The notes under the pieces are model-generated. The model saw nothing but the letters and a program-made list of their open reading frames with translations, was not told the DNA's origin and made no database searches. A DNA stretch of 64,000 bases from a virus. The translations under genes and the position numbers were made by a program. Where the stretch lies: positions 1 through 64,000 of IMG/VR virus record IMGVR_UViG_3300042922_000643, one strand, 5' to 3'. Of this stretch, positions 5,773-35,559 are shown piece by piece. Each line of letters opens with the position of its first letter. The first letter of the stretch is position 1.

Positions 5773-6006
5773 ATGCAGTGGCTATACACAATATTCGAAT
5801 GGACGTGGCATTTGAATTCTTTCGGGAACTTTATGTGGACTGTTTTTCTGATTGCGATCTTTATCTGGTCATTTTTGGGCATGCTATTCATCGCTGGAGC
5901 TAATGATCCTACGTTAGGTAGATTGATTAGATTTTTTACTATATGGTTTACTAGTCCACTGATTGTTCTTTTACTTGTTGGTTACATTGGATATTTGTCA
6001 TTTTAG
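5773..6006 (+). CDS. small membrane protein (77 aa)
   Basis: The product has two or three hydrophobic helices (about residues 19-42 and 52-74) joined by a short GANDPTLGRL loop, with Trp-rich membrane borders. ATG 5773 follows AAGGAG. It begins a run with a lipoprotein gene, so this subregion looks enriched in envelope-directed proteins. No lysis motif is recognised. Confidence 0.7.
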   Translation: MQWLYTIFEWTWHLNSFGNFMWTVFLIAIFIWSFLGMLFIAGANDPTLGRLIRFFTIWFTSPLIVLLLVGYIGYLSF

Positions 6007-6029
6007 GTATGTCTAGGAGGTTATAAACC

Positions 6030-6251
6030 TTGAAAATCGGAACAATTGGTAAAGGAAAGTGGCACCATATCGTAGAATACCGTAAGAGCTACTCAGGTGA
6101 ATATTATTACTGGTATCCTATTTGCCATAGTAGTGGACGATCCATCGAAAAGGCTATTGAATATCATCCTAATCATGAACGCTACCTGTGTCCTTCATGT
6201 GTACGACAAGCTTATCAAGATGGCATTATTCGTATATCCATAGCTGAATAA
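6030..6251 (+). CDS. hypothetical protein with Cys/His pairs (73 aa)
   Basis: The TTG start at 6030 has AGGAGG 9 bases upstream. The sequence carries HHIVEY.., an aromatic stretch (YSGEYYYWYPICHSSG) and YLCPSCVRQAY; the C/H and CPSC pairs could form one zinc site. No family is recognised. Confidence 0.65.
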   Translation: MKIGTIGKGKWHHIVEYRKSYSGEYYYWYPICHSSGRSIEKAIEYHPNHERYLCPSCVRQAYQDGIIRISIAE

Positions 6252-6271
6252 ATATCTGAGGGGGAATCTAA

Positions 6272-6664
6272 ATGAAAAAGAAGCTCGCAATTATGGTTAT
6301 AGCTCTTATGACAATTATCTTAACATCATGTACTAGTGAAGCAGACACCGTATCTCATAACCTATCGAAGTCCGCGGACTCATTTGAAGTACAAAGACGA
6401 GTCGTATTCTTTAATGGGATAACAGATAAATATCTGCTTACTGTTGAAGGTCTATGCTCCCTGAATACTGATAGTGAGAAGAAGTTGACCGTTACTTGTA
6501 AGGTTGGAGACGGTCAATACAAGAAACACTACCTTGGTTTGAGCGATAATGTAAGTTATTTTGTGGAACAAACAGACGCGAAGTATGAAGATGCATTCCA
6601 CTATAAAGTAATATTTAGACCAGAATCAATCATTCCAAATATAGACCTTCAGACAAGTAAGTAA
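6272..6664 (+). CDS. lipoprotein (130 aa)
   Basis: The N-terminus is a classical lipoprotein signal: MKKK, a hydrophobic stretch, and the lipobox LTSC with Cys at about residue 20. The mature part is a small beta-rich domain with one extra Cys pair region (LCSLNTDSEKKLTVTCKVGDG). It is likely anchored outside the membrane by diacylglycerol. In phages such proteins can block superinfection (as Ltp does in a Streptococcus phage), but nothing specific shows that here. Confidence 0.75.
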   Translation: MKKKLAIMVIALMTIILTSCTSEADTVSHNLSKSADSFEVQRRVVFFNGITDKYLLTVEGLCSLNTDSEKKLTVTCKVGDGQYKKHYLGLSDNVSYFVEQTDAKYEDAFHYKVIFRPESIIPNIDLQTSK

Positions 6665-6669
6665 TCATT

Positions 6670-6852
6670 ATGGAAAAGAAGACAAAGCAAGTACGATGTG
6701 ATAATACAAGATGTACAGCGTTGGTCGATGTTCCTGATGATTTTGAATATGAGTTTTGTTGCAATGGTTATATGTGCGGCTGCTATGGATATGCAATTAA
6801 CCCAGTATTTTGTGAAGTCTGCGAGAAAGAAATTCTGGGGAACACGCTCTAG
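6670..6852 (+). CDS. cysteine-rich zinc-binding protein (60 aa)
   Basis: The 60 residues hold eight Cys residues in pairs (VRCDNTRC, FCCNGYMCGC, VFCEVC), consistent with one or two zinc sites. The ribosome site is weak and the gene begins 5 bases after the lipoprotein stop, so translation is probably coupled. The function is unknown. Confidence 0.6.
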   Translation: MEKKTKQVRCDNTRCTALVDVPDDFEYEFCCNGYMCGCYGYAINPVFCEVCEKEILGNTL

Positions 6853-6884
6853 CTGTAACAGAATGAAAAAAGGAGTTGTTATAA

Positions 6885-7028
6885 TTGAAAACATGGAATG
6901 ATATGAAAAAGGAAATTACATCTATAAGTCCGAAGAAAAAAGCATTAATTGCTACTTTAGCAAAGAAAACGAATAATGGTCAGATAACAGAAGAAGAAGC
7001 AATGAGCATCTTATCAAAGATTAAATAA
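6885..7028 (+). CDS. small basic protein (47 aa)
   Basis: The TTG start at 6885 has AAGGAG at 6869-6874. The product is Lys-rich and helical (MKTWNDMKKEITSISPKKKALIATLAKKTNNGQITEEEAMSILSKIK in short segments), consistent with a small winged-helix-like or nucleic-acid-binding peptide. It ends 6 bases before the tRNA-like RNA at 7034. Confidence 0.6.
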   Translation: MKTWNDMKKEITSISPKKKALIATLAKKTNNGQITEEEAMSILSKIK

Positions 7029-7033
7029 AATAT

Positions 7034-7169
7034 GCTGGAAGTAGCTTAGAGGGAGAGCGGCCCTGTGTAGGGGTGTATAAAGGCCGACATGGATATAGTT
7101 TACTGTTCAGACAGTGTTCTAAACATGGCGTCAACCTTAGCAGCGATGGTTCGAGTCCATCCTTCTAGC
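7034..7169 (+). ncRNA. tRNA-like RNA with the anticodon arm replaced by a folded insert
   Basis: The ends fold as a near-canonical tRNA. Acceptor GCTGGAAG 7034-7041 pairs with CTTCTAGC 7162-7169 (one G-U). T7042 and A7043 stand at positions 8 and 9. The D-stem is GCTT 7044-7047 with GAGC 7055-7058 and a G-rich loop. The T-arm is GATGG 7145-7149, TTCGAGT loop, CCATC 7157-7161. In place of a normal anticodon arm lie about 86 bases that fold themselves: GGCC 7059-7062 with 7082-7085, and ACTGT 7102-7106 with ACAGT 7111-7115 inside an outer GTTT/AAAC stem. No CCA is encoded and no anticodon can be assigned. It is either a tRNA split by a short insertion or a true tRNA-like regulatory RNA. Confidence 0.6.
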
Positions 7170-7204
7170 AGTACATATCTTTACCGAAGGGGGTGCTGTA
7201 AATA

Positions 7205-7480
7205 TTGGATTATTTCAACTACAAAACTGCATGTGAATATATGGCTAAAAACTATTTGGTATCTGGCCCAGGTAATTATGATTATTATTTGCTGGTACAA
7301 GACAAACTTTATGGACAGTTTAGCTGTGACGATACTATATATCCTATTAAACATACACCTCAAATGCTTGAAGATATGCAGGATGATGCACTATACTGGT
7401 ATATAGTTGGCGGATGCGGCGTATGGTATGAAAATAAAGCAGAACACGATCCCCGACCTTACGGCATTTCCAGGAGGTGA
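7205..7480 (+). CDS. hypothetical protein (91 aa)
   Basis: The TTG start at 7205 lies behind GGGGGTG. The product is acidic and Tyr-rich (DYFNYKTACEYMAKNYLVSGPGNYDYYLLVQ..), with one Cys in GGCGVWYENK. No motif is recognised. It follows the tRNA-like RNA by 35 bases and may share its transcript. Confidence 0.65.
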   Translation: MDYFNYKTACEYMAKNYLVSGPGNYDYYLLVQDKLYGQFSCDDTIYPIKHTPQMLEDMQDDALYWYIVGGCGVWYENKAEHDPRPYGISRR

Positions 7481-7489
7481 TAAACAACT

Positions 7490-7873
7490 ATGAAATGTCC
7501 TTATTGTCAAGGCGAAGTTATGTTTCTCACCAGTAAACAGTTTTATGGAGTAGACTATGGAACAAACGTTTATTCATGCAAGCCATGTGACGCTTACGTG
7601 GGCACTCACGGTAATACTAAGCAACCTCTAGGAACTCTCGCGAATAAAGAGCTTCGGAAATATCGGAGTCTTGCACATAAAGCATTTGATCCATTGTGGA
7701 AAACTAAAGGAATGACTCGTACTGCTGCTTATCGATGGATGTCTGAACAGATGTCTATTGCGCCGCAGGAAGCGCATATCGGAATGTTTAATATTAATCA
7801 GTGTAAGCAGATAATTGAACTACTCTCAGTAGTAAAATACTTTGTAGAAGGGAATTATGATGAAAGATTCTAA
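7490..7873 (+). CDS. DUF3268 zinc-finger protein
   Basis: The 127-residue product fits DUF3268 (zinc-finger-containing domain). It has an N-terminal CPYCQGEV knuckle, a second YSCKPCDAYVGTHGNTKQPLGTLAN segment with the diagnostic PLGTLANKELR run, then AHKAFDPLWK and a helical tail. The four Cys bind zinc. The family is common in phages and its function is not established. ATG 7490 follows GGAGGTG, and the gene overlaps the next one by 17 bases. Confidence 0.8.
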   Translation: MKCPYCQGEVMFLTSKQFYGVDYGTNVYSCKPCDAYVGTHGNTKQPLGTLANKELRKYRSLAHKAFDPLWKTKGMTRTAAYRWMSEQMSIAPQEAHIGMFNINQCKQIIELLSVVKYFVEGNYDERF

Positions 7874-8012
7874 TTTAGTTATAGACACACACTGTGAAGT
7901 ATGTAAAAGCGATTTTATGATACCTTACAGTACACATCTTGAAAATGATGTATACTGTGATACATGCAAAAGCCTCTTGGTCAAAAAAGGAGAGTTGGTT
8001 TATGAACAATGA
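7857..8012 (+). CDS. small zinc-ribbon protein (51 aa)
   Basis: Two CxxC pairs (HCEVCKSDF and YCDTCKSLL) are spaced about 20 residues apart, making a minimal zinc ribbon with little else. It starts inside the end of the DUF3268 gene (ATG 7857 or 7860, behind AGAAGGG) and overlaps the following gene by 11 bases, so the three are probably translationally coupled. Confidence 0.65.
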   Translation: MMKDSNLVIDTHCEVCKSDFMIPYSTHLENDVYCDTCKSLLVKKGELVYEQ

Positions 8013-8172
8013 TATTGTAGTGCGTATCGTAGATCGAATCCTATCCAACCTTACAAACCGTTCTGGCTTTGGTGAGGTTTGGTGTAGCTGTGAAGAAATC
8101 ACTCATGAAAACATTAAGGCAGACCTGGAGAATATTGTTCGTCGCGAAATGGAAAGAGCGGGTATATCATGA
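8002..8172 (+). CDS. small hypothetical protein (56 aa)
   Basis: ATG 8002 is chosen because AAGGAGAG lies about 8 bases before it; the longer in-frame start at 7939 has no ribosome site. The product is helical with ENIKADLENIVRREMERAG at the end. It overlaps both neighbours. The function is unknown. Confidence 0.6.
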   Translation: MNNDIVVRIVDRILSNLTNRSGFGEVWCSCEEITHENIKADLENIVRREMERAGIS

Positions 8173-8267
8173 GCCGAAAACCAAAGAAAGAATCTTCGTG
8201 GCTGAATATAATTGGAGATATATTTGAAGCCTTGGCAGATCTAGTCGAGGCTATTTTTGTGAAGTAG
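8169..8267 (+). CDS. 32-residue amphipathic microprotein
   Basis: The ATG overlaps the previous stop (ATGA, 8169-8172). The 32 residues are a basic start (MSRKPKKESS) and one amphipathic or membrane-associating helix (WLNIIGDIFEALADLVEAIFVK). This resembles membrane-active small phage or toxin peptides, but evidence is limited to composition and to the tight coupling with its neighbours. Confidence 0.5.
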   Translation: MSRKPKKESSWLNIIGDIFEALADLVEAIFVK

Positions 8268-8277
8268 GAGGACTCTT

Positions 8278-8622
8278 ATGAGTTTCGTTGATCTTAAAAC
8301 AATGGAAGACTTTATTACTTTTGAATTAGGTTCTGATGTAGTAGCTGTTGTCTTTAATAATCAATTTGAAAATCTTCTAAAAAATGGAGAAATCATTTTC
8401 TTTACACTTGAAGATGGGTATGGAACTTGTTACATGAAAAAGGGTTTCGGATTTTCCAAGCCTAAAGTTGAAATGACAATTTTTTCTTTTGACAAGGATG
8501 AATTTCTTTCCTATCGCCACAAGGATATTGGAAAAGCAATAAAGGTGTTTGAACAATTTTACAAGGATGGAACTCGATTTTTTTATGAGCCAGGTCTTCA
8601 ACAAGAAAGGCTGATGAAATGA
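8278..8622 (+). CDS. hypothetical protein (114 aa)
   Basis: ATG 8278 follows AGGAGG. The protein is Phe-rich and mixed alpha/beta (FFTLEDGYGTCYMKKGFGFSKPKVEMTIF), with a helical C-terminal half. No domain is recognised. It overlaps the next start by four bases (ATGA). Confidence 0.65.
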   Translation: MSFVDLKTMEDFITFELGSDVVAVVFNNQFENLLKNGEIIFFTLEDGYGTCYMKKGFGFSKPKVEMTIFSFDKDEFLSYRHKDIGKAIKVFEQFYKDGTRFFYEPGLQQERLMK

Positions 8623-8885
8623 TGTATCAAGATCCTTACGATACACTCCACCTGGACGTATCAGGAATCAAAGTATCCTATGCACTAAAAAGGGATTTTA
8701 AGAATGGAGATATTGTACGATTGAGGGAGCCTTACAAGGGCTATACTCATGGTGTTATTGTTTATCATAACGAAACCTTGGGTGTTCTTGTACGTCTTCC
8801 TGGAACTTGGCAGAATGAACGTGGTGTATGGAATTATCATAAGTATTATTTCGAGCACGAAATTGACTGTGTAAAGGAGAATTGA
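8619..8885 (+). CDS. hypothetical protein with KOW/SH3-like stretch (88 aa)
   Basis: The start is one of two adjacent ATGs at 8619/8622 that overlap the upstream stop. The segment FKNGDIVRLREPYKGYTHGVIVYHNETLGVLVRLPG reads like a small beta-barrel of the kind that begins many phage SH3-type proteins (GD.V......G.I). No catalytic residue is visible. Confidence 0.6.
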   Translation: MMYQDPYDTLHLDVSGIKVSYALKRDFKNGDIVRLREPYKGYTHGVIVYHNETLGVLVRLPGTWQNERGVWNYHKYYFEHEIDCVKEN

Positions 8886-8886
8886 A

Positions 8887-9246
8887 ATGAGTGGTGGAAG
8901 CAACTCTAACGCCGAAGCGGGAGGATTAGCCATATTCCCTCTCGTCGGCCTGATATTTATCATCCTTAAGCTTACTGGAGCAATTGGATGGAGTTGGTGG
9001 TGGGTTACCGTTCCATTTTGGGGGCTTCCAGTACTAGGCGGCGGACTAGTTATTGCAGGCATGATCCTTTATGTTATATTCTCTTTCTTTGGTCTTGTTT
9101 TTTCTTCTTTAGCTCTGAATGTAGCTAACAAAACCTTAGATAAAAAGAAAAAAGAAGTAGAGCTTAAAAGAATGATACAAGAACAGAGTCGTCCATACAG
9201 TGCTGATGAAATTCCGTCAAAAACAACAACAAAACATTATCTTTAA
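8887..9246 (+). CDS. multi-pass membrane protein (119 aa)
   Basis: Three hydrophobic stretches span roughly residues 12-28, 34-58 and 60-78. The WSWWWVTVPFWGLPVLGG core matches the Trp-rich pattern seen in small phage and bacterial proteins described as transmembrane Fragile-X-F-like. A charged, Lys-rich cytoplasmic tail follows. It starts 2 bases after the upstream stop. The function is unknown. Confidence 0.7.
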   Translation: MSGGSNSNAEAGGLAIFPLVGLIFIILKLTGAIGWSWWWVTVPFWGLPVLGGGLVIAGMILYVIFSFFGLVFSSLALNVANKTLDKKKKEVELKRMIQEQSRPYSADEIPSKTTTKHYL

Positions 9247-9263
9247 GTAAGGAGATGATAGTT

Positions 9264-9290
9264 ATGAAAAAGAAGTTTGATCACCTGTAG
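9264..9290 (+). CDS. possible 8-codon leader peptide
   Basis: AAGGAG at 9249-9254 is followed by ATG 9264 and a frame of eight codons (MKKKFDHL) ending TAG at 9288-9290, then a second AAGGAG serving the next gene. It may be a leader peptide or the remnant of a decayed gene. The only support is the strong ribosome site. Confidence 0.3.
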   Translation: MKKKFDHL

Positions 9291-9319
9291 GTAAGTCCAC
9301 CTATAAGGAGATGACTGTT

Positions 9320-9952
9320 TTGAAATATTATATTCACAGCCTGACGAAGAATACGTACTTTACTCTCGATTCTTTTGAAGAGATGATTCAATGGTTTGCT
9401 CGTCAGAATAGGCCGAATCACCGTCAAATTTTTTACGGGAGTCATCCTTGGGAATATCGCCGCGAGGAATTGCCTATCAATCCAAAGATTCATCATTGGT
9501 CACTGTTCAATAGTGCGCTTGCAGAGATTGCAATGAATCCTACAGATGTTCGTCATCGGTATGATTGGGATGGAGCAGGTGGATACATTGCCGTCAGAGA
9601 CATTATGGTGACTGATGAACTGAATCGAACCATTGATCCGCGGCATTACTGGGATAAGATCGCGACTACTGTTGTTAACTACACTTATAGAAGTAACATA
9701 CATCCGTATGTCTACCGCTTTGATCCTGTAGAACGCACGGGAAAGCGTCGCGGAGGACCTTCTTCTAAGCGTATTGCTACATTCCAAGAGCGAAAGCTCT
9801 CTTGCGATCCTGAAATCAAAGAATTTGTTCATCCTAAACGAAACATGATGAATCTTCCTAGTTCTTGGGATCAGCATCCTCGTAATACAAACCACTGCTG
9901 GAAAGCAAAAAAACTAAAGAAGCAGTGGATGAAACACCTAAAAGGAGCTTAA
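9320..9952 (+). CDS. hypothetical protein, basic C-terminus (210 aa)
   Basis: TTG 9320 has AAGGAG 9 bases before it; the ATG at 9311 directly abuts that site and is too close. The N-terminal half includes YDWDGAGGYIAVRDIMV. The C-terminal half is strongly basic with FDPVERTGKRRGG and a tail WKAKKLKKQWMKHLKGA that looks nucleic-acid binding. It may be a conserved phage family, but I cannot name it. Confidence 0.7.
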   Translation: MKYYIHSLTKNTYFTLDSFEEMIQWFARQNRPNHRQIFYGSHPWEYRREELPINPKIHHWSLFNSALAEIAMNPTDVRHRYDWDGAGGYIAVRDIMVTDELNRTIDPRHYWDKIATTVVNYTYRSNIHPYVYRFDPVERTGKRRGGPSSKRIATFQERKLSCDPEIKEFVHPKRNMMNLPSSWDQHPRNTNHCWKAKKLKKQWMKHLKGA

Positions 9953-9956
9953 TGAA

Positions 9957-10145
9957 ATGCAAACCGCCGTATTCGATGCCAATGGTAACATTGTCACTGA
10001 GGGAGATTTTGTACGCTCCCTAAAAACAGGATTTACCTGGGTTGTACTGGGAAGCAATGAAGTGATTGTTTCCTTAGCTTATGGCCCCATACAAGAAGCA
10101 GTCCGTCTTGAGGTATTCCGCACTGAATTTGTGCTTGAAAAATAG
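9957..10145 (+). CDS. small hypothetical protein (62 aa)
   Basis: ATG 9957 lies 4 bases after the upstream stop, with AAGGAG inside the upstream gene. The product is beta-rich (MQTAVFDANGNIVTEGD..VVLGSNEVIVSLAYG) and resembles a compact SH3-like barrel in outline. It is followed by 266 bases with no gene that fold strongly. Confidence 0.6.
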   Translation: MQTAVFDANGNIVTEGDFVRSLKTGFTWVVLGSNEVIVSLAYGPIQEAVRLEVFRTEFVLEK

Positions 10146-10149
10146 AGCA

Positions 10150-10400
10150 TGCTTTTTACGTCCTTCCTCCCCTAAGGTCCTCAGATAAAGGTAGCTTACA
10201 GGTATCTTTATCAATTCTTCATTCATATAACTTACCGAGGGGCAAATCGGTAAGGTGAGGGAGCCGCCTAAAACTGTTGACCACAGCAGAAGGTTGGAAT
10301 CGTGGCGGTGAGCGGAACCGTAATAATCCGTTAGCTCTGGAGGTGGGATGTCTTGGTCGGCATTCATGTCGCCACCTCTGGGGCGAATCTTTTAAAAAAG
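10150..10400 (+). ncRNA. candidate large structured RNA
   Basis: No gene lies between 10146 and 10411, yet the sequence has five strong helices in series. GATAAAGGTA 10184-10193 pairs with TATCTTTATC 10203-10212 (one G-U). CTTACCGA 10231-10238 pairs perfectly with TCGGTAAG 10247-10254. GCCGCC 10263-10268 pairs with GGCGGT 10304-10309, enclosing a CTGT/ACAG hairpin. GAGC 10310-10313 pairs with GCTC 10334-10337. GAGGTGG 10340-10346 pairs perfectly with CCACCTC 10372-10378. The ribosome site of the next gene lies just beyond. It may be a regulatory leader or an independent RNA. It does not match RNase P, tmRNA or a riboswitch I know. Confidence 0.5.
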
Positions 10401-10411
10401 GGGGTATATTT

Positions 10412-10687
10412 ATGAGTGACTTTAGCAAGTTAGACCTCGTACATGCCACGCTAAGCGCTTTAAGGGACGGGTATAGACCGTCTATTCTATCTCCCGTAAA
10501 AACTCATGACGTAAAGCGACAGTGGCACTGTTGCCATATTACATGTGACAATCTGGCTGACTTTGTATTACATAGTGATAATCACTTCGAGGATTACACT
10601 CATATGTGTACTGACCACGTTGCACATTATCAAGAAGATTATGACCATAAGACGCCTATTACTCGGCCAGAGAGAGGAGAAACTTAA
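10412..10687 (+). CDS. Cys/His-rich hypothetical protein (91 aa)
   Basis: ATG 10412 has AAGGGGG 9 bases upstream. The product is rich in His and Cys (RQWHCCHITCDNLADF.. and HMCTDHVAHYQEDYDH), which suggests a metal site although no standard zinc-finger spacing is met. It follows the structured RNA, which may regulate it. Confidence 0.65.
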   Translation: MSDFSKLDLVHATLSALRDGYRPSILSPVKTHDVKRQWHCCHITCDNLADFVLHSDNHFEDYTHMCTDHVAHYQEDYDHKTPITRPERGET

Positions 10688-10690
10688 AAA

Positions 10691-10777
10691 ATGATATTTA
10701 TTAATGCACTAGAAAAGTTCGTCAATTTTCTTGCTCTTATAGAAATGGTTCTTTTGGAACACGAGGATAACTCTTGA
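10691..10777 (+). CDS. 28-residue hydrophobic microprotein
   Basis: ATG 10691 follows GAGAGGAG at the end of the upstream gene. The frame gives 28 residues with a hydrophobic stretch (IFINALEKFVNFLALIEMVLL) and an acidic end, compatible with a membrane-associated helix. Support is the spacing and composition only. Confidence 0.4.
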   Translation: MIFINALEKFVNFLALIEMVLLEHEDNS

Positions 10778-10818
10778 AGTCTGTATAATCAAAATCTTGA
10801 TATGGGAGGTGATATAAG

Positions 10819-11337
10819 ATGGCAAGTAGAAAAATGTTCAAAACTTCACTGTCATGGAGTAATTATCTTTGGGTTTTTGCTGTAGAACCTAAACCTCGAC
10901 CAGATATCATGAGAGGAATTACATCTCGTGGATCGATAAGTCCTTATGAAACTTACAATGCTAGAAGTTATGTTATTGTAACTGTCGATTCACCATTGGC
11001 AAGAACTTTGGGTGTCAGCATTCCAGACATACCTGTTATTCAAGCAATCCTTGATATGGGTTTTCGTAATGATAAAAAGAGCTCACATTATCCTGGCCAC
11101 CATTACATTCCAGGACTACGTGTTGAACGTATCGGAGAACAAAGAGCCCATCAAATTGTCAGTGAACCTGAACGATTCTTTAGGCAGGATGTCATTGAAT
11201 TTTATAAGGAGAGAGGAATTACATTGGACCAAATGGTAATAGAACTATTGCAACCTATGGAATCATACGAACTACCCATATCTTTTGAATTACCCAGATA
11301 TCACAAGCTTGGTCCAGAATGGACCCACTTAGAATGA
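10819..11337 (+). CDS. hypothetical protein (172 aa)
   Basis: ATG 10819 follows GGGAGGTG. The protein has a central HYPGHHYIPGLRVERIGEQRAHQIV segment with clustered His and a C-terminal Pro-rich beta region. No family is recognised. It comes just before the replication genes. Confidence 0.7.
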   Translation: MASRKMFKTSLSWSNYLWVFAVEPKPRPDIMRGITSRGSISPYETYNARSYVIVTVDSPLARTLGVSIPDIPVIQAILDMGFRNDKKSSHYPGHHYIPGLRVERIGEQRAHQIVSEPERFFRQDVIEFYKERGITLDQMVIELLQPMESYELPISFELPRYHKLGPEWTHLE

Positions 11338-11358
11338 TCATAAAGGAGAGGAAACGTT

Positions 11359-11820
11359 ATGGAAGAGAGGGGGACGAGTCAGAACCTATTCTACGAAGCT
11401 GAATTCGATGGTTCTTCAAAACCTGATATACAATTTTCTAGTGTTGGCGGTGTGATCTATAACCCCGCTGGCGATATTATTTGTGAATATGGACGCGAAG
11501 TACCTTTCACGAATAATATTTACGAGCTTGAATATTTAGCACTTATTGAAATCATGAAAGAGCTACATCGTTTAAACGTGAAGAATGTTATCATCTCTGG
11601 CGATAGCAAATGGGTTATCTACAAAGTTTATCTTGGTAGCTCCAGATTAAAACTCCATGAAGAAAACCTTAAGCGTGTTCACGAAAAGGCTAGAAATTTA
11701 TTCCGAGATTTCGATTATTGCAGACTCAAGTGGGTTTCCCGAGATCTTAATTGCTATGCTCATAATCTATGTAATTCAGTTACCCAAAAAGAGAAAGACG
11801 AGCAGAAGAGCATAATGTAA
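11359..11820 (+). CDS. ribonuclease H-like protein
   Basis: The 153-residue product matches the RNase HI-like (RVT_3) fold: first strand FYEAEFDGSSKP with the first Asp, GGVIYNPAGDII, the helix YELEYLALIEIMKEL with the catalytic Glu, and IISGDSKWVI with the second Asp. Family members usually end with NxxAD, whereas this one reads NCYAHNLC, so the last metal-binding Asp appears replaced by His. It would remove RNA primers or process RNA in hybrids, but may be weak or altered in activity. Its 3' end is part of a terminator stem. AAAGGAG precedes ATG 11359. Confidence 0.75.
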   Translation: MEERGTSQNLFYEAEFDGSSKPDIQFSSVGGVIYNPAGDIICEYGREVPFTNNIYELEYLALIEIMKELHRLNVKNVIISGDSKWVIYKVYLGSSRLKLHEENLKRVHEKARNLFRDFDYCRLKWVSRDLNCYAHNLCNSVTQKEKDEQKSIM

Positions 11821-11842
11821 TCCCTTCGTCTTTCTCTTTTTG
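11786..11842 (+). terminator. strong intrinsic terminator overlapping the RNase H-like stop
   Basis: The left arm 11786-11801 (AAAAAGAGAAAGACGA) and right arm 11826-11841 (TCGTCTTTCTCTTTTT) are perfect 16-base complements with a 24-base loop, and the right arm itself ends in five T residues. The left arm lies in the last codons of the RNase H-like gene. The mirrored A-run would also allow it to work in the reverse direction. Confidence 0.8.
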
Positions 11843-11890
11843 GGGTCCTGTAAATTTATTTCGGGATCGCAAATAATGTACTTCCCTTAC

Positions 11891-11910
11891 CTAGTATATT
11901 TTGCTATGAT
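11891..11910 (+). promoter_or_regulatory. extended -10 promoter for ssb-recA
   Basis: TTGCTATGAT at 11901-11910 gives a TATGAT -10 with TG one base upstream, an extended -10. The -35 region is poor (TTCCCT). CTAGTATAT at 11891-11899 recurs at other intergenic sites. It lies between the terminator and the SSB gene and is the likely start of the recombination/replication transcript. Confidence 0.55.
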
Positions 11911-11961
11911 ATCTATAGTAAAGTTATGGATAAGGGTAATCAGAAGAGGAGTGTGAATGTA

Positions 11962-12366
11962 TTGAGTTATTCGTCTCATAGTTTTATCGGTCGATTGACT
12001 AGAGATCCTGAAGGCCGCAATGTGAATGCTGGCGGCGAAGAAGCCCGTGTAGTAAACTTCACAGTTGCAGTGGATCGCCCAGGCGTTAACAAAGGCGCTG
12101 ACTATTATCCCGTTGTTGTTTGGCGGAAACTGGCTGAAAATTGTGAACGTTACCTAGGGAAAGGTCGTCTAGTACATGTTGAAGGCCGTCCTCAGCAACG
12201 TAGTTATAAGACTCAGAAAGACGGCGTGGAAGTTACTGTGAATGTAACTGAAATTATCGCCAATGATGTTCAGTTCTTAGACCGTGCAGATGCGCCAGCA
12301 GCTCAGACACCTCCACCTGAAACGGACTATGCTCTAAATATCAGTGATGACGATTTGCCATTCTGA
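11962..12366 (+). CDS. ssb: single-stranded DNA-binding protein
   Basis: The OB-fold signature is clear: FIGRLTRDPEGR, VVNFTVAVDRPG, YYPVVVWRKLAENCERYLGKGRLVHVEGRPQQRSY in order, then a Pro/Gln linker and the acidic tip DDDLPF that recruits partner proteins. The product is about 134 residues from TTG 11962, chosen because AGAGGAG sits 10 bases upstream. An ATG at 11926 would add 12 residues but lies almost at the predicted transcript start and has no ribosome site. It coats single-stranded DNA during phage replication and works with RecA and primase encoded nearby. Confidence 0.93.
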   Translation: MSYSSHSFIGRLTRDPEGRNVNAGGEEARVVNFTVAVDRPGVNKGADYYPVVVWRKLAENCERYLGKGRLVHVEGRPQQRSYKTQKDGVEVTVNVTEIIANDVQFLDRADAPAAQTPPPETDYALNISDDDLPF

Positions 12367-12378
12367 GGAGGTACACTC

Positions 12379-12696
12379 TTGTCTGACCAAAGAAGAGATC
12401 GTATCGAGATGCGCCAAGGATTTCACCAATTCATGATGCATATGTATCAATCATATCTTCAGTCTAATTCCGAACAAAAAGCTAAAGAGATCGTCGCCGA
12501 GTGTATTAAGGAGCAGCTAAACTTGCTAATTGGCGACGATTTTCTGTCCTCTTCGGAGTGTGCAAAGCTAAAAGAACGGAAAGAAGCTTTGGATAAAGAA
12601 CTTGCTGCTTCTGACAATTACGACATGCAGCTTTATCTAGCGGAGAAGATTGATACTTTGCAAGGCGCAATCGATATAATGACTGAATCGTATTAA
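12379..12696 (+). CDS. helical hypothetical protein (105 aa)
   Basis: TTG 12379 follows AGGAGG by 8 bases, and the gene lies between ssb and recA. The product is entirely helical with charged heptads (KLKERKEALDKELAASDNYDMQLYLAEKIDTLQGA), possibly a coiled-coil adaptor for the recombination proteins. That role is inferred from position only. Confidence 0.7.
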   Translation: MSDQRRDRIEMRQGFHQFMMHMYQSYLQSNSEQKAKEIVAECIKEQLNLLIGDDFLSSSECAKLKERKEALDKELAASDNYDMQLYLAEKIDTLQGAIDIMTESY

Positions 12697-12733
12697 ACCC
12701 TTGGTTTCAAACAGTATAAAGGAGTAGTGATAT

Positions 12734-13861
12734 ATGGATAGCGATCTGGTCAAACTCTTTAGCACTATTAATAAAAATTATGACAAATCCTTGAAGCATC
12801 AAACAATTCGAATGTTAACAAAAGAAAACATGCCAGAGATTAAGACTTTCCCTTCAGGTTCTTTAAATCTTGACCTTGCGATAGGTCGTGGCGGTCTTCC
12901 TCGTGGACGTATTATCGAAGTATTTGGTCCTGAAAGTTCGGGTAAAACAACAGTATGCCTACTGCACATCGCTGAAGTTCAGAAAGCAAATGAAGGCTTG
13001 TGCGCTTTCGTGGATGCGGAGCACGCTTTTGACCCCATGCTTGCCCATGATTACGGAGTTGACCTCGACAATCTTGCTTACGTTGATGCTCTCACTGCGG
13101 AGCAATCTCTTGATACCGTAGAAGCACTTGTCCGCACAGGGAAATTTCGATTGGTTGTTGTAGATTCAGTGTCTGCACTTACGCCTACAGTTATTGCAGA
13201 AAGTTCTATCGAGAAGCAAACGATGGGTCTTCAAGCTAGACTAATGTCTACAGCGATGATGAAACTCAATGGTGTTGCCTATCAAAACGATTGTAGCGTT
13301 ATCTTCATCAATCAGCTTCGTGAAAAAGTGGGCGCATTCAGTCCAATCCCTGGACAGGCTGCTACAACTACTTCTGGTGGGCGTGCTCTTCCTTTCTATA
13401 GCTCTGTACGTCTGAGAGTTACACGCGTAGAAAATATTGGAGAGAAAGAAAACGTTATCGGTCATGTCATGAAAGTAAAAGTCGTCAAAAATAAGATCGG
13501 AGTACCTTTCAAAGAGGCTACTTTCCCAATCTACTATAATGTCGGTGTTGATAAAGTCTACGAAATTGTAACCATCGCCATTCTTGCTGGAATCATTTAT
13601 AAATCTAGTGGCTGGTATAGCTATCGTGACGGAAACAACGAGATTATTATTCGAGATGGAGAGAAGTATCAGTGGAATGGTGAATCTTCTGTTATCGACT
13701 TTGTTCGTTCTCACGAAACCTTTATGAACGAACTGGAATCCCGTGTACGTGGAGTAGAGGTAGAGGCTCCGACAGGTGCTCCTGAGTCTGAAGATGGCTA
13801 TAGCATCGAAGAGGCGGCCGCAGCCGCGGTAGCAGCTGGATTGGAGACCCCTAATGAGTGA
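12734..13861 (+). CDS. recA: RecA recombinase
   Basis: The 375-residue product has the RecA core. Walker A is GPESSGKT at 65-72, followed by the FVDAEHAFDP segment, VVVDSVSALTP as Walker B, MGLQARLMSTAMMKL, and the SVIFINQLREKVG loop that leads into L2. It forms filaments on single-stranded DNA and drives strand exchange and double-strand-break repair, probably feeding replication by recombination and the RuvC-type resolvase at 53.7 kb. Its C-terminal 100 residues differ from the standard bacterial domain and end with an Ala/Glu-rich tail. It overlaps the next gene by 8 bases. Confidence 0.93.
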   Translation: MDSDLVKLFSTINKNYDKSLKHQTIRMLTKENMPEIKTFPSGSLNLDLAIGRGGLPRGRIIEVFGPESSGKTTVCLLHIAEVQKANEGLCAFVDAEHAFDPMLAHDYGVDLDNLAYVDALTAEQSLDTVEALVRTGKFRLVVVDSVSALTPTVIAESSIEKQTMGLQARLMSTAMMKLNGVAYQNDCSVIFINQLREKVGAFSPIPGQAATTTSGGRALPFYSSVRLRVTRVENIGEKENVIGHVMKVKVVKNKIGVPFKEATFPIYYNVGVDKVYEIVTIAILAGIIYKSSGWYSYRDGNNEIIIRDGEKYQWNGESSVIDFVRSHETFMNELESRVRGVEVEAPTGAPESEDGYSIEEAAAAAVAAGLETPNE

Positions 13862-17840: not shown

Positions 17841-17863
17841 ATCACACCAGTTTTTCCCTGTTT

Positions 17864-17923
17864 GGATTATGATGAAAGTCCACTATATTTTTATCTAGTA
17901 TATAAACTTTCATCATATAATCC
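17864..17923 (+). repeat. 16-bp inverted repeat in the nrdD leader
   Basis: GGATTATGATGAAAGT 17864-17879 is mirrored by ACTTTCATCAT-AT-AATCC 17906-17923 with only a 2-base insertion. The loop contains CTAGTATAT (17895-17903), a word repeated in other intergenic regions. A TATAAT lies in the right arm. It could be an operator or an mRNA hairpin controlling the anaerobic reductase genes. It does not match the classic NrdR box closely. Confidence 0.6.
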
Positions 17924-17942
17924 CAAAGAAGAGGTGTCCGAG

Positions 17943-19901
17943 ATGCACGAAAAGCACGTTGAATCACTACATCAAATGGCAGAAAACATTATCCAAGTTC
18001 AAGATGTTGATCTGGCAAGAGAAAACGCTAACCTGAATGGGGAGTCTTTCTCTGGCAAGATGAGCAAGATGGGTAGTGAGTTCTCCAAATGGTATGCAAA
18101 ATCGGTAATGATGCCAAGCAAATTGGTCAACGCCATTGACGAAAACTTTGTTTATGTTCATGATTTAGACCAATATGTATTAGGTACTACCAATTGTATC
18201 TTTATACCGTTTGGAAAGCTTCTTGAACGCGGATTTAATACAGGGAATGGTAGTGTACGGCCACCGAATTCGATCATGACAGCAATGTCTTTGGTCGCCA
18301 TCATCTTTCAGTCTCAACAGAACTCTCAATACGGCGGAGTCTCAGGAAACAAAATTGATTGGGACCTTGCTCCGTATGTAGACAAATCTTTTGCAAAGCA
18401 TTTCCTGGTAGGACTAGAGTTCCTGGAAGAAACTCTGCCACATCCTTTCACTATAGAAAACAAAGCTGACCTTACGTTCGACAATGCAATGCTTCGCGCT
18501 GTGTGCCCTAAGGCTTTTTCATATGCAGAAAAGCTGACTATCAATGAAACAAACCAAGCCGCCGAGAGTATGATCCACAATTTGAATACAATGTCGAGTC
18601 GTGCTGGTGGACAGATTCCTTTCACTAGTATCAACTATGGAACATGTACTTCACCTCAAGGGCGATTGGTTATCCGTGCAATCTTAAGAGCAACCATGAA
18701 TGGACTTGGGAATGGAGAAACTCCGATTTTCCCGCAACATATTTTCAAATGTAAAAAAGGTGTGAACCAATCTACAGAAGATCCAAACTATGATCTGTTC
18801 CTCGAAGCAATTGAGTGTTCGTCGAAGCGTCTTTACCCTAACTTTGCGAATATTGATGCACCATTCAATCTTCAATACTATAACCCCGAAGATCCTGATA
18901 CAGAGTTTGCAACAATGGGCTGCCGTACACGCGTAATTTCTGATCGCTTCGGCTACAACCATCTTTCAGGTAAGGGAAACCTTTCTTTCAACACTCTGAA
19001 TCTAGTAAAGCTAGGGCTGGAATATGGTATCGCTTTAGGAGAACGTTCAGAAGCGGACTTAGAAAGTTTCTATTACGAACTCTATCACTATATGGATCTA
19101 TCTTTAGAAGGTTTGATTCATCGCTTTGAGATTCAAGCGGAGCAACAAGCCAAGGCCTCTGATTTCATGATGCGTGAAGGTGTCTGGGAAAATGGCGAGA
19201 AGCTTGAACCAGAAGATAAGGTTCGTGAACATATCAAACATGGTTCCTTGTCTATTGGTTTTATTGGAGTCGCTGAGTGTATGAAGGCACTCTTTGGCAA
19301 GCACCATGGTGAGGACCCTGAAGTAATGAAGTTTGCAGTTGATCTCATCGATACGATTCGACAATATTGTGATCGTAAATCAGACGAGCACAACCTGAAC
19401 ATTACACTATTTGCTACACCTGCTGAAGGACTATCTGGTAAGTTTACCAAGAGTGATCGTCAGTACTATGGAAACATAGAAGGCGTAACAGACCGTGAAT
19501 ACTATACAAATTCGTTCCATATCCCTGTATACTACGATATGAAAGCTGCTGATAAGATTCGCGCCGAAGCACCGTTCCATGAACTGTGTAACGCAGGAGC
19601 TATCTCTTATATCGAACTAGACGGAAACGCACGGAACAATCAACTGGCTTTCTTAAAGATCGTACAGTACGCATTGTCTCAAAACATCAGTTATTTTAGC
19701 GTTAATCATCCCGTAGATCGATGCCCTTCCTGCGGCTACGAGGGCTCTATTGGAGACACTTGTCCGAACTGTGCAGCAGATGAATCTACTCATCCTTTCA
19801 GACGCTTACGCCGTGTCACAGGCTACCTGACAGGAGACTATACGACTCGATTCAATAGTGCGAAACAAGCTGAGGTTAGAGATCGGGTTAAACATCTATG
19901 A
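17943..19901 (+). CDS. nrdD: anaerobic ribonucleoside-triphosphate reductase, large subunit
   Basis: The 652-residue product is a class III reductase. It has the glycine-rich barrel region (TTNCIFIPFGKLLERGF..), the Cys in MGCRTRV, the C-terminal zinc ribbon CPSC 594-597/CPNC 607-610, and the glycyl-radical site in RRVTGYLTG (Gly about 627). It converts NTPs to dNTPs under anoxic conditions after activation by NrdG, whose gene overlaps by four bases. ATG 17943 has AAGAGGTG 8 bases upstream; the frame is open further upstream through the inverted repeat but without a good start. It implies infection of a host that grows without oxygen. Confidence 0.93.
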   Translation: MHEKHVESLHQMAENIIQVQDVDLARENANLNGESFSGKMSKMGSEFSKWYAKSVMMPSKLVNAIDENFVYVHDLDQYVLGTTNCIFIPFGKLLERGFNTGNGSVRPPNSIMTAMSLVAIIFQSQQNSQYGGVSGNKIDWDLAPYVDKSFAKHFLVGLEFLEETLPHPFTIENKADLTFDNAMLRAVCPKAFSYAEKLTINETNQAAESMIHNLNTMSSRAGGQIPFTSINYGTCTSPQGRLVIRAILRATMNGLGNGETPIFPQHIFKCKKGVNQSTEDPNYDLFLEAIECSSKRLYPNFANIDAPFNLQYYNPEDPDTEFATMGCRTRVISDRFGYNHLSGKGNLSFNTLNLVKLGLEYGIALGERSEADLESFYYELYHYMDLSLEGLIHRFEIQAEQQAKASDFMMREGVWENGEKLEPEDKVREHIKHGSLSIGFIGVAECMKALFGKHHGEDPEVMKFAVDLIDTIRQYCDRKSDEHNLNITLFATPAEGLSGKFTKSDRQYYGNIEGVTDREYYTNSFHIPVYYDMKAADKIRAEAPFHELCNAGAISYIELDGNARNNQLAFLKIVQYALSQNISYFSVNHPVDRCPSCGYEGSIGDTCPNCAADESTHPFRRLRRVTGYLTGDYTTRFNSAKQAEVRDRVKHL

Positions 19902-32861: not shown

Positions 32862-33392
32862 ATGGCCGTACCAGGCAGCCTGTGGGTTCAAGGGACCCAG
32901 CTTCGTTTTACGAGTCAAAGCGGAGTCAACTTTGCATATGAAGGTACTTATAGTAGCTCGCCTGCTGGAGCTAAACCAGGCAGCTCATGGATCGAAGGCG
33001 ATAACTTCGCTTATATCGACCAGTATGGTTCTAAAAGACTCGTTATTAATTATACTGCTACTAATATTCCCGCCGCAGTTGCAGGCAGCTTATGGATTTA
33101 TGGCAATTATCTTTATTGGATTAACACTAATAAGAATAAAACCTACGGACATGGAGATGCAACTCATCAGAATACAAGCTATAATGATGGTAGTTATAAC
33201 GATTATAATAATTCATCAACATCCCATGGTGATTCTACGGTAACTTTCCAAGATTCGCCGACACATGGTAATCATGTACCCTACCATGCGGACTGGCCTG
33301 CTTCACATACGGATAGCTATAACTATCAAGATACACACAACAATAGCTACCATACGGATACTCCACATGCTGATTATCCTATTCAAGTGTAG
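32862..33392 (+). CDS. repeat protein with His/Tyr-x-Asp/Asn tail, likely radical SAM substrate
   Basis: The 176-residue product has two parts. Residues 1-95 hold three copies of a 35-residue beta repeat: GSLWVQG at 5, GSSWIEG at 40 and GSLWIYG at 75, an exact 35-residue period. Residues 97-172 are built from short [H/Y/F]-x-[D/N] units every 5-7 residues: nine H-x-D/N (97, 102, 122, 135, 142, 149, 159, 164, 169) plus YND, YNN, FQD and YQD. The gene precedes a radical SAM/SPASM gene by 15 bases. By analogy with His-Xaa-Ser (Hxs) repeat systems it is the probable modification target. It could instead be an unmodified virion appendage with a metal-binding tail. Confidence 0.7.
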   Translation: MAVPGSLWVQGTQLRFTSQSGVNFAYEGTYSSSPAGAKPGSSWIEGDNFAYIDQYGSKRLVINYTATNIPAAVAGSLWIYGNYLYWINTNKNKTYGHGDATHQNTSYNDGSYNDYNNSSTSHGDSTVTFQDSPTHGNHVPYHADWPASHTDSYNYQDTHNNSYHTDTPHADYPIQV

Positions 33393-33407
33393 GGAGGAGA
33401 GAACACA

Positions 33408-34628
33408 TTGACAACAGAAGTGAGACCTATGGGTGTTTCGTGTCCTTTAAAATGTGTTTATTGCTATCAAGAACCCCAGAGGGTTGCGGGAAATACTAAT
33501 GCAAAATATGATTTGGCGAAGATGATTCAGGAGATCTCAAAGACTCGAACAAAGAATATTAATTTCTTTGGTGGCGAGATCTTAATGATGCCTATAGAAG
33601 ATCTAGAGGTACTGCTGGCTTACGCTCATGTTAAGTTCGGTGGATCAGGTGTTCAAACCAGCGGATCTATCATGAGAGATGAACATATTGAACTCTTCAA
33701 AAAGTACAATGTTCAGCTGGGCTTCTCCATTGACGGTCCTAACGAGCTAAACAGTCTCCGAGTTCCACGCAATCCAAAGACTCCTATTGAAAGTACAACG
33801 GATAATACAATGAAATATATCAAGCTATCAAAAGAAGCTGGGCTTGATGTAGGCCTTATTATTACCCTTCATAGAGAAAACTCTACTCCAGAACGTATTC
33901 CACGGTTGTTTAATTTTATCAAGTGGTTATGGGATCTTGGTATTCGTAGCGGGAATATTCATACTCTAGAAATTGAATCTACAATGCCGAACCACGACTT
34001 TGTATTGACACAAGAAGAGAACATCTGGGCTTACACCCAACTTGCCGAGTTCTTTAAAACGCTTCCTGACCATGGATGGAATCCTTTCGCAGAGATTAAA
34101 GACTTACTGATGGGTAACGATCAAAAAACTCTTTGTTATTGGCACCGATGCGATCCATTGAATACTCAAGCTGTCCACGGAATCGAAGGTGACGGTGCAA
34201 TCTCTAACTGTGGACGAGCAAATAAAGAAGGAATTGACTGGGTCAAAGCTCCTGATAATTATTATGCAAGATACATCAGCTTCTATCATACGCCTCAAGA
34301 TATGGGTGGCTGTAATGGATGCCGCTTCTGGACAGTATGCGGAGGAAGTTGCCCAGGTGAATCCGATCAGGGGGATTTCAGAAATAAAACAACACATTGC
34401 TCTACTCAGAAAGCAATACTTTCCTATTATGAAAAAGAACTTATTGATGAAGGCAAGCTACCCATTACGACATCGCCTTTGCTTCCTCTTGTTGAACAGC
34501 TCGTTCTTAATGGTCTTGAAAGAGGAGAGAACTTATATCTTAATACTGTTATTTCAATGATTGAAGAGATGAGAACAGAAGTCATCCAACTGGAAGTCGT
34601 AGAGGAGGATATCAATGAAACTACTTGA
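33408..34628 (+). CDS. radical SAM/SPASM peptide-modifying enzyme
   Basis: The 406-residue product has the radical SAM cluster motif CPLKCVYCY (Cys 12, 16, 19), a GGE-type SAM motif (NFFGGEILMM) and a C-terminal SPASM region with CYWHRC near 242, SNCGRAN near 265 and CNGCRFWTVCGGSCPGE near 300-318, enough Cys for auxiliary clusters. SPASM enzymes mature peptides (sactipeptides, ranthipeptides, Hxs) or sulphatases. TTG 33408 has GGAGGAG upstream. It lies directly after the repeat protein and overlaps the next gene by 14 bases, a cassette-like layout. The chemistry is unknown. Confidence 0.85.
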   Translation: MTTEVRPMGVSCPLKCVYCYQEPQRVAGNTNAKYDLAKMIQEISKTRTKNINFFGGEILMMPIEDLEVLLAYAHVKFGGSGVQTSGSIMRDEHIELFKKYNVQLGFSIDGPNELNSLRVPRNPKTPIESTTDNTMKYIKLSKEAGLDVGLIITLHRENSTPERIPRLFNFIKWLWDLGIRSGNIHTLEIESTMPNHDFVLTQEENIWAYTQLAEFFKTLPDHGWNPFAEIKDLLMGNDQKTLCYWHRCDPLNTQAVHGIEGDGAISNCGRANKEGIDWVKAPDNYYARYISFYHTPQDMGGCNGCRFWTVCGGSCPGESDQGDFRNKTTHCSTQKAILSYYEKELIDEGKLPITTSPLLPLVEQLVLNGLERGENLYLNTVISMIEEMRTEVIQLEVVEEDINETT

Positions 34629-35559
34629 TTTTAGTATGCCACCATTTGCAAGAACGGTTTGGGCCTCTCAAGAAATAGAGAAGGAGTGGCGTCCCAAACT
34701 GGCTTTAGCCTCTCAAGCTTATGAGCGTTTAGAGTATGAAACGGTTGTTCATGGCCTTAGAGCCTGTACAACAGCACATTGTACTCCTGATGATATGGTT
34801 CGTCGGATTCAATTTTATGCAAAGAAAGGTCTTATGTATCATCCCTTACAGCAAGTAGGTGCTTATACAGGGTTCGCTCATACACACCCTCCAGTTATTC
34901 CAGGAAAACCTTGGACCTGGTTCGGTGTTGTAGCTAAAGACCCTCTTGATGCTTACACCTTTGCTGAGGCATCTGCATTGACAGAAGATTCCGCGGGTAA
35001 GGAAATAGATCACTCAACGATTGGCACTCTTCTTGGATACCCTGAATGCTGCCGAAAGTTCTTCACAGATGTATGGGCCGCGGGATATGTTGATCCTGTA
35101 TGGCAACAAGCAGAAAACTGTGAAGGTGAATACGTAGTGAAGAAAGAAGAGCATCTTATTCAGCTAAGCAAGGAGACTCCATGGGAGACTTCACCACTAC
35201 TGAGATACATTGGAGTACGTATCATGCCTCACATTCCATGCTCTCATGATTGTAAACCTTCTCTGGTTATCGCAAGAAGTTGGTTGGATCTTGGTAGAGA
35301 GTTGGCCATACCAGGCATGGAAGAGCTTGAGCAATTTCTTCGGATGCCAGTAGAATGGGATTGCTTGAAGGGGATAGCCTATGTGTCTACTCCAATCTTC
35401 AAGATTGAAACGAATTCCATGACATGTTATCCACGGCATGTTGTTCAAAAGGAAGGAACATTTAGACCAAAGAGTGGAGCAAAAGGACTGAAGTTTCCTT
35501 TTATTCCGCTAGGATCTGATAAGTTTGCTCACCTCTTTGGAGGAGGAAGCGGGTGCTAA
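34615..35559 (+). CDS. GYPxCC-motif protein (DUF483-like) of the radical SAM cassette
   Basis: The 314-residue product has LLGYPECCRKFFTDVW near 139-154 and PCSHDCKPSLVIARSW near 206-221. These resemble the lGYPxCC and CxxxCxxS signatures I associate with DUF483-like proteins, which are often near radical SAM genes. The central THPPVIPGKPWTWFG segment is conserved-looking. The Cys pairs suggest a metal or iron-sulphur site. It starts inside the radical SAM gene, so the two are surely co-translated. It may be a partner enzyme or substrate carrier. Confidence 0.65.
   Translation: MKLLDFSMPPFARTVWASQEIEKEWRPKLALASQAYERLEYETVVHGLRACTTAHCTPDDMVRRIQFYAKKGLMYHPLQQVGAYTGFAHTHPPVIPGKPWTWFGVVAKDPLDAYTFAEASALTEDSAGKEIDHSTIGTLLGYPECCRKFFTDVWAAGYVDPVWQQAENCEGEYVVKKEEHLIQLSKETPWETSPLLRYIGVRIMPHIPCSHDCKPSLVIARSWLDLGRELAIPGMEELEQFLRMPVEWDCLKGIAYVSTPIFKIETNSMTCYPRHVVQKEGTFRPKSGAKGLKFPFIPLGSDKFAHLFGGGSGC

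Follow-up and report, generated by a model that had tools for sequence, protein, structure and literature searches.

Radical SAM enzymes that form three-residue cyclophanes join the ring of a Trp, Phe, Tyr or His residue at position i to the β-carbon of an Asn, Asp, Arg, Ala or Ser residue at position i+2 (PMC11002830). Like the triceptide maturases (XncB, OscB, YxdB, HaaB and YhhB) and the related DynA and AmcB, the enzyme described here is a radical SAM protein with a SPASM region, and the array proteins encoded beside it and its relatives carry the same motif in 1,990 units, with an aromatic residue at i and Asp or Asn, two of the triceptide partners, at i+2. It differs from those enzymes in falling far short of the cut-offs of the curated models, in having a DUF483-like partner, in being mostly virus-borne, and in its substrate, which instead of a small precursor peptide would be a protein associated with the virion and bearing up to dozens of units. 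The Hxs system likewise combines a repeated His-x-residue substrate with a radical SAM enzyme, although its repeat is H-x-S and its enzymes are the pair HxsB and HxsC, whereas here the repeat is H-x-D/N and there is usually one radical SAM enzyme. The iron needle of T4 gp37 is also a histidine-rich fibre tip, but it has H-x-H in place of aromatic-x-D/N and no enzyme. Direct homologues of all three genes of our cassette were described in 2024 in phages Cumys and phiMa as a radical SAM module with a guessed role in DNA modification, and the parts of that account drawn on here make no mention of an H-x-D array, a fibre tag or a substrate role (PMC11437467).

The window, the whole stretch of DNA analysed, comprises bases 1–64,000 of a virus record of 251,543 bases (G000). 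Three genes transcribed in the same direction occupy positions 32862–35559 (Table 1), and direct reading confirmed base for base the layout given in an earlier note on this DNA, including the repeats, the units, the motifs, the 15 bases between the stop codon of the substrate candidate and the TTG start of the radical SAM gene at 33408, and the 14 bases that this gene shares with the third ORF, which encodes a GYPECC protein; the description of the setting as a lytic phage found no such confirmation. The start at 33408 agrees with the N-termini of relatives (MSIEVRPLGVRCN). The cassette sits amid replication genes and away from the virion genes, the terminase, portal and structural genes of the record lying at about 78–175 kb on the opposite strand. 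The window also encodes an anaerobic ribonucleotide reductase, NrdD (17841–19898), which suggests that the phage has anaerobic hosts, and growth in such hosts would suit an oxygen-sensitive radical SAM enzyme.

Table 1. Features of the three-gene cassette (positions in the window)
Feature	Position	Strand	Basis
Substrate candidate, 176 aa, GSxW repeat domain and [HYF]-x-[DN] tail	32862..33392	+	Direct reading; relatives
N-terminal domain, three 35-residue beta-hairpin repeats, probable fibre-tip docking domain	32862..33155	+	AlphaFold2; tag co-occurrence
Tail with 14 [HYF]-x-[DN] units, inferred modification sites	33150..33374	+	Motif counts
Ribosome-binding site GGGAGGAG ahead of the TTG start of the radical SAM gene	33393..33400	+	Direct reading
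Radical SAM/SPASM maturase, 406 aa, TTG start	33408..34628	+	PF04055; invariant Cys
DUF483-like partner, 314 aa	34615..35559	+	P143, C145, C146, D160 and C213 invariant

The first protein repeats GSxW with a period of exactly 35 residues (positions 5, 40 and 75), and its tail (residues 94–176) contains non-overlapping [HYF]-x-[DN] units in a number that none of 20,000 residue shuffles reached (4.5 ± 1.6 units in the shuffled tails). Asp or Asn stands at +2 of nine of the ten His residues of this tail, and the C-terminal end is conserved as HxD-[QYKFH]-P. The GSxW domain is modelled by AlphaFold2 as all-beta (pLDDT 91.8), with no significant match among PDB folds; a likeness to glucan/choline-binding repeats was weak (E about 0.2–0.7) and was set aside. 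Relatives of the 176-residue protein are encoded by phiMa, Cumys, a Halomicrococcus plasmid and more than 25 viral contigs. There is also a second type of H-x-D protein (e.g. VVVQHADTTHNDTTHAD), found on four contigs (L264, L291, L313 and L319), one of which carries the enzyme.

The second protein matches PF04055 (radical SAM; E=7.5e-16). The CxxxCxxC cysteines (C12, C16 and C19) and all seven SPASM cysteines (C248, C268, C302, C305, C311, C315 and C331) are invariant in 46 sequences, as is an additional Cys243, and with both cysteine patterns present the protein is a member of the radical SAM/SPASM superfamily. Its top curated models are AmcB and DynA, and the DynA, AmcB, YhhB, GrrM and XyeB models match 46 of the 46 enzyme sequences. 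The window enzyme nevertheless scores under every NCBIfam cut-off (72.5 bits against 425 at best), and anaerobic sulfatase maturases, among which is the best solved structure (4k36), match about equally well. The parallel with Hxs systems drawn in the earlier note does not extend to membership, with a score of 36.1 bits against 370 for HxsB and almost no H-x-S in the arrays. No known peptide-recognition domain was identified. To judge from these comparisons the enzyme belongs to a separate family, which probably works like a cyclophane maturase. In the tree it pairs with an enzyme of Chengkuizengella (Paenibacillaceae), to which it is 51% identical, with full support. Many of the enzymes (31 of 46, including those of L003, L007, L017, L025, L044, L046, L047, L057 and L245) have H-x-D units at their own C-termini (consensus HGDHxD), as if they were self-modified or mimicked the substrate; the window enzyme has none. 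At four loci (L044, L045, L046 and L047) the enzyme gene is present in two tandem copies beside one or more arrays.

The third protein is modelled with confidence (AlphaFold2 pLDDT 92.9), and searches of the PDB and viral fold libraries with the model gave no match at E<=0.001. Its likeness to DUF483 (PF04467) is confined to the GYPxCC stretch and at 19.8 bits lies below the gathering score of 25 bits, although 22 of 36 relatives match PF04467 at E<=0.001. About a third of the relatives are fused to a methyltransferase domain. At two loci (L089 and L093), both on metagenome-assembled contigs, titled Bacillota and Pirellulales, the enzyme and DUF483-like parts are joined in a single ORF and the array is attached to large proteins. 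Our guess is that the DUF483-like protein presents the substrate to the enzyme, though it may instead serve through a cofactor.

When IMG/VR was scanned with the enzyme or the DUF483-like protein as single sequences no relatives were found, but a profile of six enzymes succeeded and gathered 56 viral and 10 genome loci, about 66 in all, spanning phages from a wide range of bacteria, prophages and one haloarchaeal plasmid provirus. Among 50,697 phage records, relatives of the enzyme over most of its length occur in three Thermus phages only, phiLo, Cumys and phiMa; Cumys and phiMa have all three genes in the same order as the window, and their array proteins contain more than 50 H-x-D units.

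A genome-neighbourhood survey of the kind called for in the earlier note was run on loci that were well flanked, that is with a distinct enzyme, at least 4.5 kb upstream and at least 2.5 kb downstream. An array lies near the enzyme in 32 of these 35 family loci, 31 of them recognized by a looser cluster detector and one (L026) by the first detector, which required at least eight [HYFW]-x-[DN] per 60 residues and at least three H-x-D. Applied to 42 loci of less closely related radical SAM proteins from the same scans, the first detector found no arrays, and the looser one fires in four control loci; the linkage is highly significant (32/35 family against 0/30 control loci, Fisher test 2e-15). 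The DUF483-like gene is present in 34 of the 35 family loci and in none of the controls. The reverse test searched blind for runs of H-x-D with two DNA patterns and returned 51 genuine arrays, partly non-independent since some loci share contigs, of which 45 share their record with the enzyme (39 within the fetched stretch and six elsewhere); the other six are on records without the enzyme, all possibly fragments. Several blind-pattern matches, L226, L295 and L345 among them, were DNA-repeat or pentapeptide-repeat artefacts and were excluded. Homologues of the repeat protein that were common without the enzyme would have spoken against a functional pairing, and every phage record in which the repeat domain was found also has the enzyme, these records being phiMa and Cumys only. 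The array is missing from three well-flanked loci, two from Pseudoalteromonas (L091 and L092) and one from Halorussus (L094), with enzyme and DUF483-like partner both present; a further candidate exception, L016, was rejected, as it has an array of Phe with Asn, Gln, Ser, Thr and Asp. In L091 and L092 (about 6000–13000) a TP_methylase protein and a PhyH dioxygenase accompany the enzyme and a DUF483-like/DUF364 protein, and the cluster may represent a different peptide pathway. We consider it very likely that the array protein is the substrate of the radical SAM enzyme. The proposal of the earlier note that the tail is modified, perhaps unit by unit, to give a surface appendage is strongly supported by the co-occurrence, by the repeat statistics and by the fibre-tip context.

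The units were analysed in 64 non-redundant tails from 50 loci. Asp or Asn stands at +2 of 84% of aromatic residues, against a base rate of 23%, and of 97% of His residues, absolute frequencies that are inflated because the tails were chosen by motif, an effect that the offset control reduces without abolishing it. In that control, clusters at offset 2 were present in 55 of 66 loci and those at offsets 1, 3–6 and 8 in 0–8 loci; the 24 loci with clusters at offset 7 reflect the next unit. Interleaved units are scarce (1.3%, against 5.7% in shuffles). The unit counts (HD 1424, HN 182, FN 157, FD 43, YD 143, YN 27, WD 10 and WN 4) reveal a paired swap, His going with Asp and Phe with Asn (odds ratio 28.6). 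His is followed at +2 by Ser in 3 of 1,649 cases and by His in 4 of 1,649, so that the tails have neither the Hxs nor the metal-fibre pattern. Between phiMa and Cumys, codon comparison gave three amino-acid changes in 116 unit positions and 11 in 133 other tail positions, a suggestive difference that is too small in number to carry weight.

This spacing of an aromatic residue and Asp or Asn is the pattern of the triceptide maturases, and on this ground we propose an enzyme that works like a cyclophane maturase; a cross-link within each unit appears probable. It is unlikely, though worth retaining as an alternative, that the enzyme alters each unit without a cross-link, for instance by epimerization or by another change at Cβ or Cα of the Asp or Asn. 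All of the linkage evidence would fit that equally well, the reactions of SPASM enzymes are diverse, and one radical SAM enzyme makes cyclopropyl groups in TVGG-peptide repeats (PMC11002830); but it leaves unexplained why an aromatic residue should be required at −2 and why H–D and F–N swap as pairs, and a Pfam search of the window enzyme revealed no extra domain, such as a B12-binding one.

A metal-binding appendage was also suggested in the earlier note, and tail fibres with H-x-H iron sites are known (PMC11705849). His and Asp are metal ligands, and the array might be a metal-binding fibre like the T4 gp37 needle, with the enzyme having some other target. The arrays of L013 and L016, however, are nearly all F-x-N and F-x-N/Q/S/T respectively, which are non-chelating, and are encoded with enzymes of the same family. 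L013 (F-rich tail) and L010 (H-rich tail) have sister enzymes that are 70% identical, and F-rich arrays are scattered across the enzyme tree without clustering. Since Phe and Asn side chains of the F-x-N kind form no metal site, metal binding is not the role that the arrays share; it would, moreover, give no reason for the linkage to a radical SAM gene, and we regard this explanation as very improbable.

The cross-linking reading also accords with where the array genes are found. At L087 the array gene comes after genes for a tail protein, a baseplate wedge, a tail fibre, a baseplate protein and another tail fibre, in that order, and is followed by those for the enzyme and then the DUF483-like protein, and in phiMa and the haloarchaeal Halomicrococcus plasmid the same trio similarly follows baseplate or tail-fibre genes. 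L017 has the array grafted to a J-like tail protein, and L008, L012 and L062 have it joined to proteins with a lectin-like domain. Of 69 family loci, 39 have fibre-like genes, usually immediately upstream of the array gene, that encode a short C-terminal tag, [VIL]xPVGx[DN]x[WFY]; the 42 control loci have none, and several tagged genes match tail-fibre families. The tag and the GSxW domain occur together (35 loci with both, 25 with neither, seven discordant; Fisher test 3e-11), and at L039 they are fused in one protein. The window phage has a single tagged ORF, outside the window at 86,266–87,315 (L116:2266–3315) on the minus strand; it lies amid virion genes 53 kb from the cassette, ends in LVIPVGNDMYAT and is weakly similar to tail-fibre proteins. 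A Nitratiruptor fibre that resembles it has no tag. With this one distant tagged fibre, a cassette amid replication genes could still serve the virion, and the array is likely to be at the fibre tip in most members of the family.

This context also bears on two other readings. Radical SAM/SPASM maturases often process RiPP precursors, and the array could be the precursor of a released peptide, a toxin or antibiotic, borne by phages; the TP_methylase and PhyH genes at the Pseudoalteromonas loci would fit that reading. Long arrays grafted onto large structural proteins and the fibre context do not, and no protease or exporter was recognized next to the window genes, which makes a released peptide highly improbable. 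The DNA modification proposed for phiMa and Cumys scarcely seems credible: the parts of that account drawn on here place relatives near deazapurine genes in some cyanobacteria (PMC11437467) and the DUF483-like proteins have methyltransferase fusions, but QueC was found in one of 12 virus records and a TGT-family gene in none of the 12, 7-deazapurine genes (QueC/TGT-type) were absent from the window-phage record, and the arrays, whose proteins belong to tail-fibre modules, would be left unexplained.

Our best reading of the cassette, and a probable one, is a virus-encoded fibre-tip bristle stapled by its own enzyme. We infer its docking, modification and role in the virion as follows. The GSxW-repeat domain would dock onto the tagged C-terminus of the tail-fibre protein, so displaying a flexible chain of [H/F/Y]-x-[D/N] units. 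The enzyme, whose nearly constant partner is the DUF483-like protein, would abstract a β-hydrogen from the Asp or Asn of each unit; the resulting radical would attack the ring of the aromatic residue at −2, and the electron would pass to the auxiliary iron–sulphur clusters. Closure of each three-residue ring would cost about 2 Da, at up to 14 units in the window protein, and the virion would thereby carry a poly-cyclophane rod that is stiff and resists proteases.

We know of no virus structural protein that is matured by radical SAM cross-linking. Within the open literature we found no paper that joins radical SAM enzymes and cyclophanes with tail fibres or bacteriophages, subscription papers being mostly outside that scope and priority uncertain. 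More generally, it seems somewhat more probable than the contrary that poly-cyclophane rods, stapled by a virus-encoded radical SAM system that matures structural proteins, form the fibre tips of many tailed viruses, bacterial and archaeal alike; array, docking domain and fibre tag would be interchangeable modules, and the enzyme would often bear a modifiable tail of its own. If this is so, radical SAM chemistry would yield a structural material of viruses, beyond small peptide products, and the cassette would be a natural, genetically encoded means of stapling long protein fibres. The many natural substrate sequences would reveal what the enzymes tolerate (His, Phe, Tyr and Trp with Asp and Asn), and the published module would gain a testable function, for which Cumys and phiMa, with Thermus thermophilus HB8 as host, would be tractable test cases. 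Phages and a haloarchaeal provirus would then have in common a device for receptor binding or stability.
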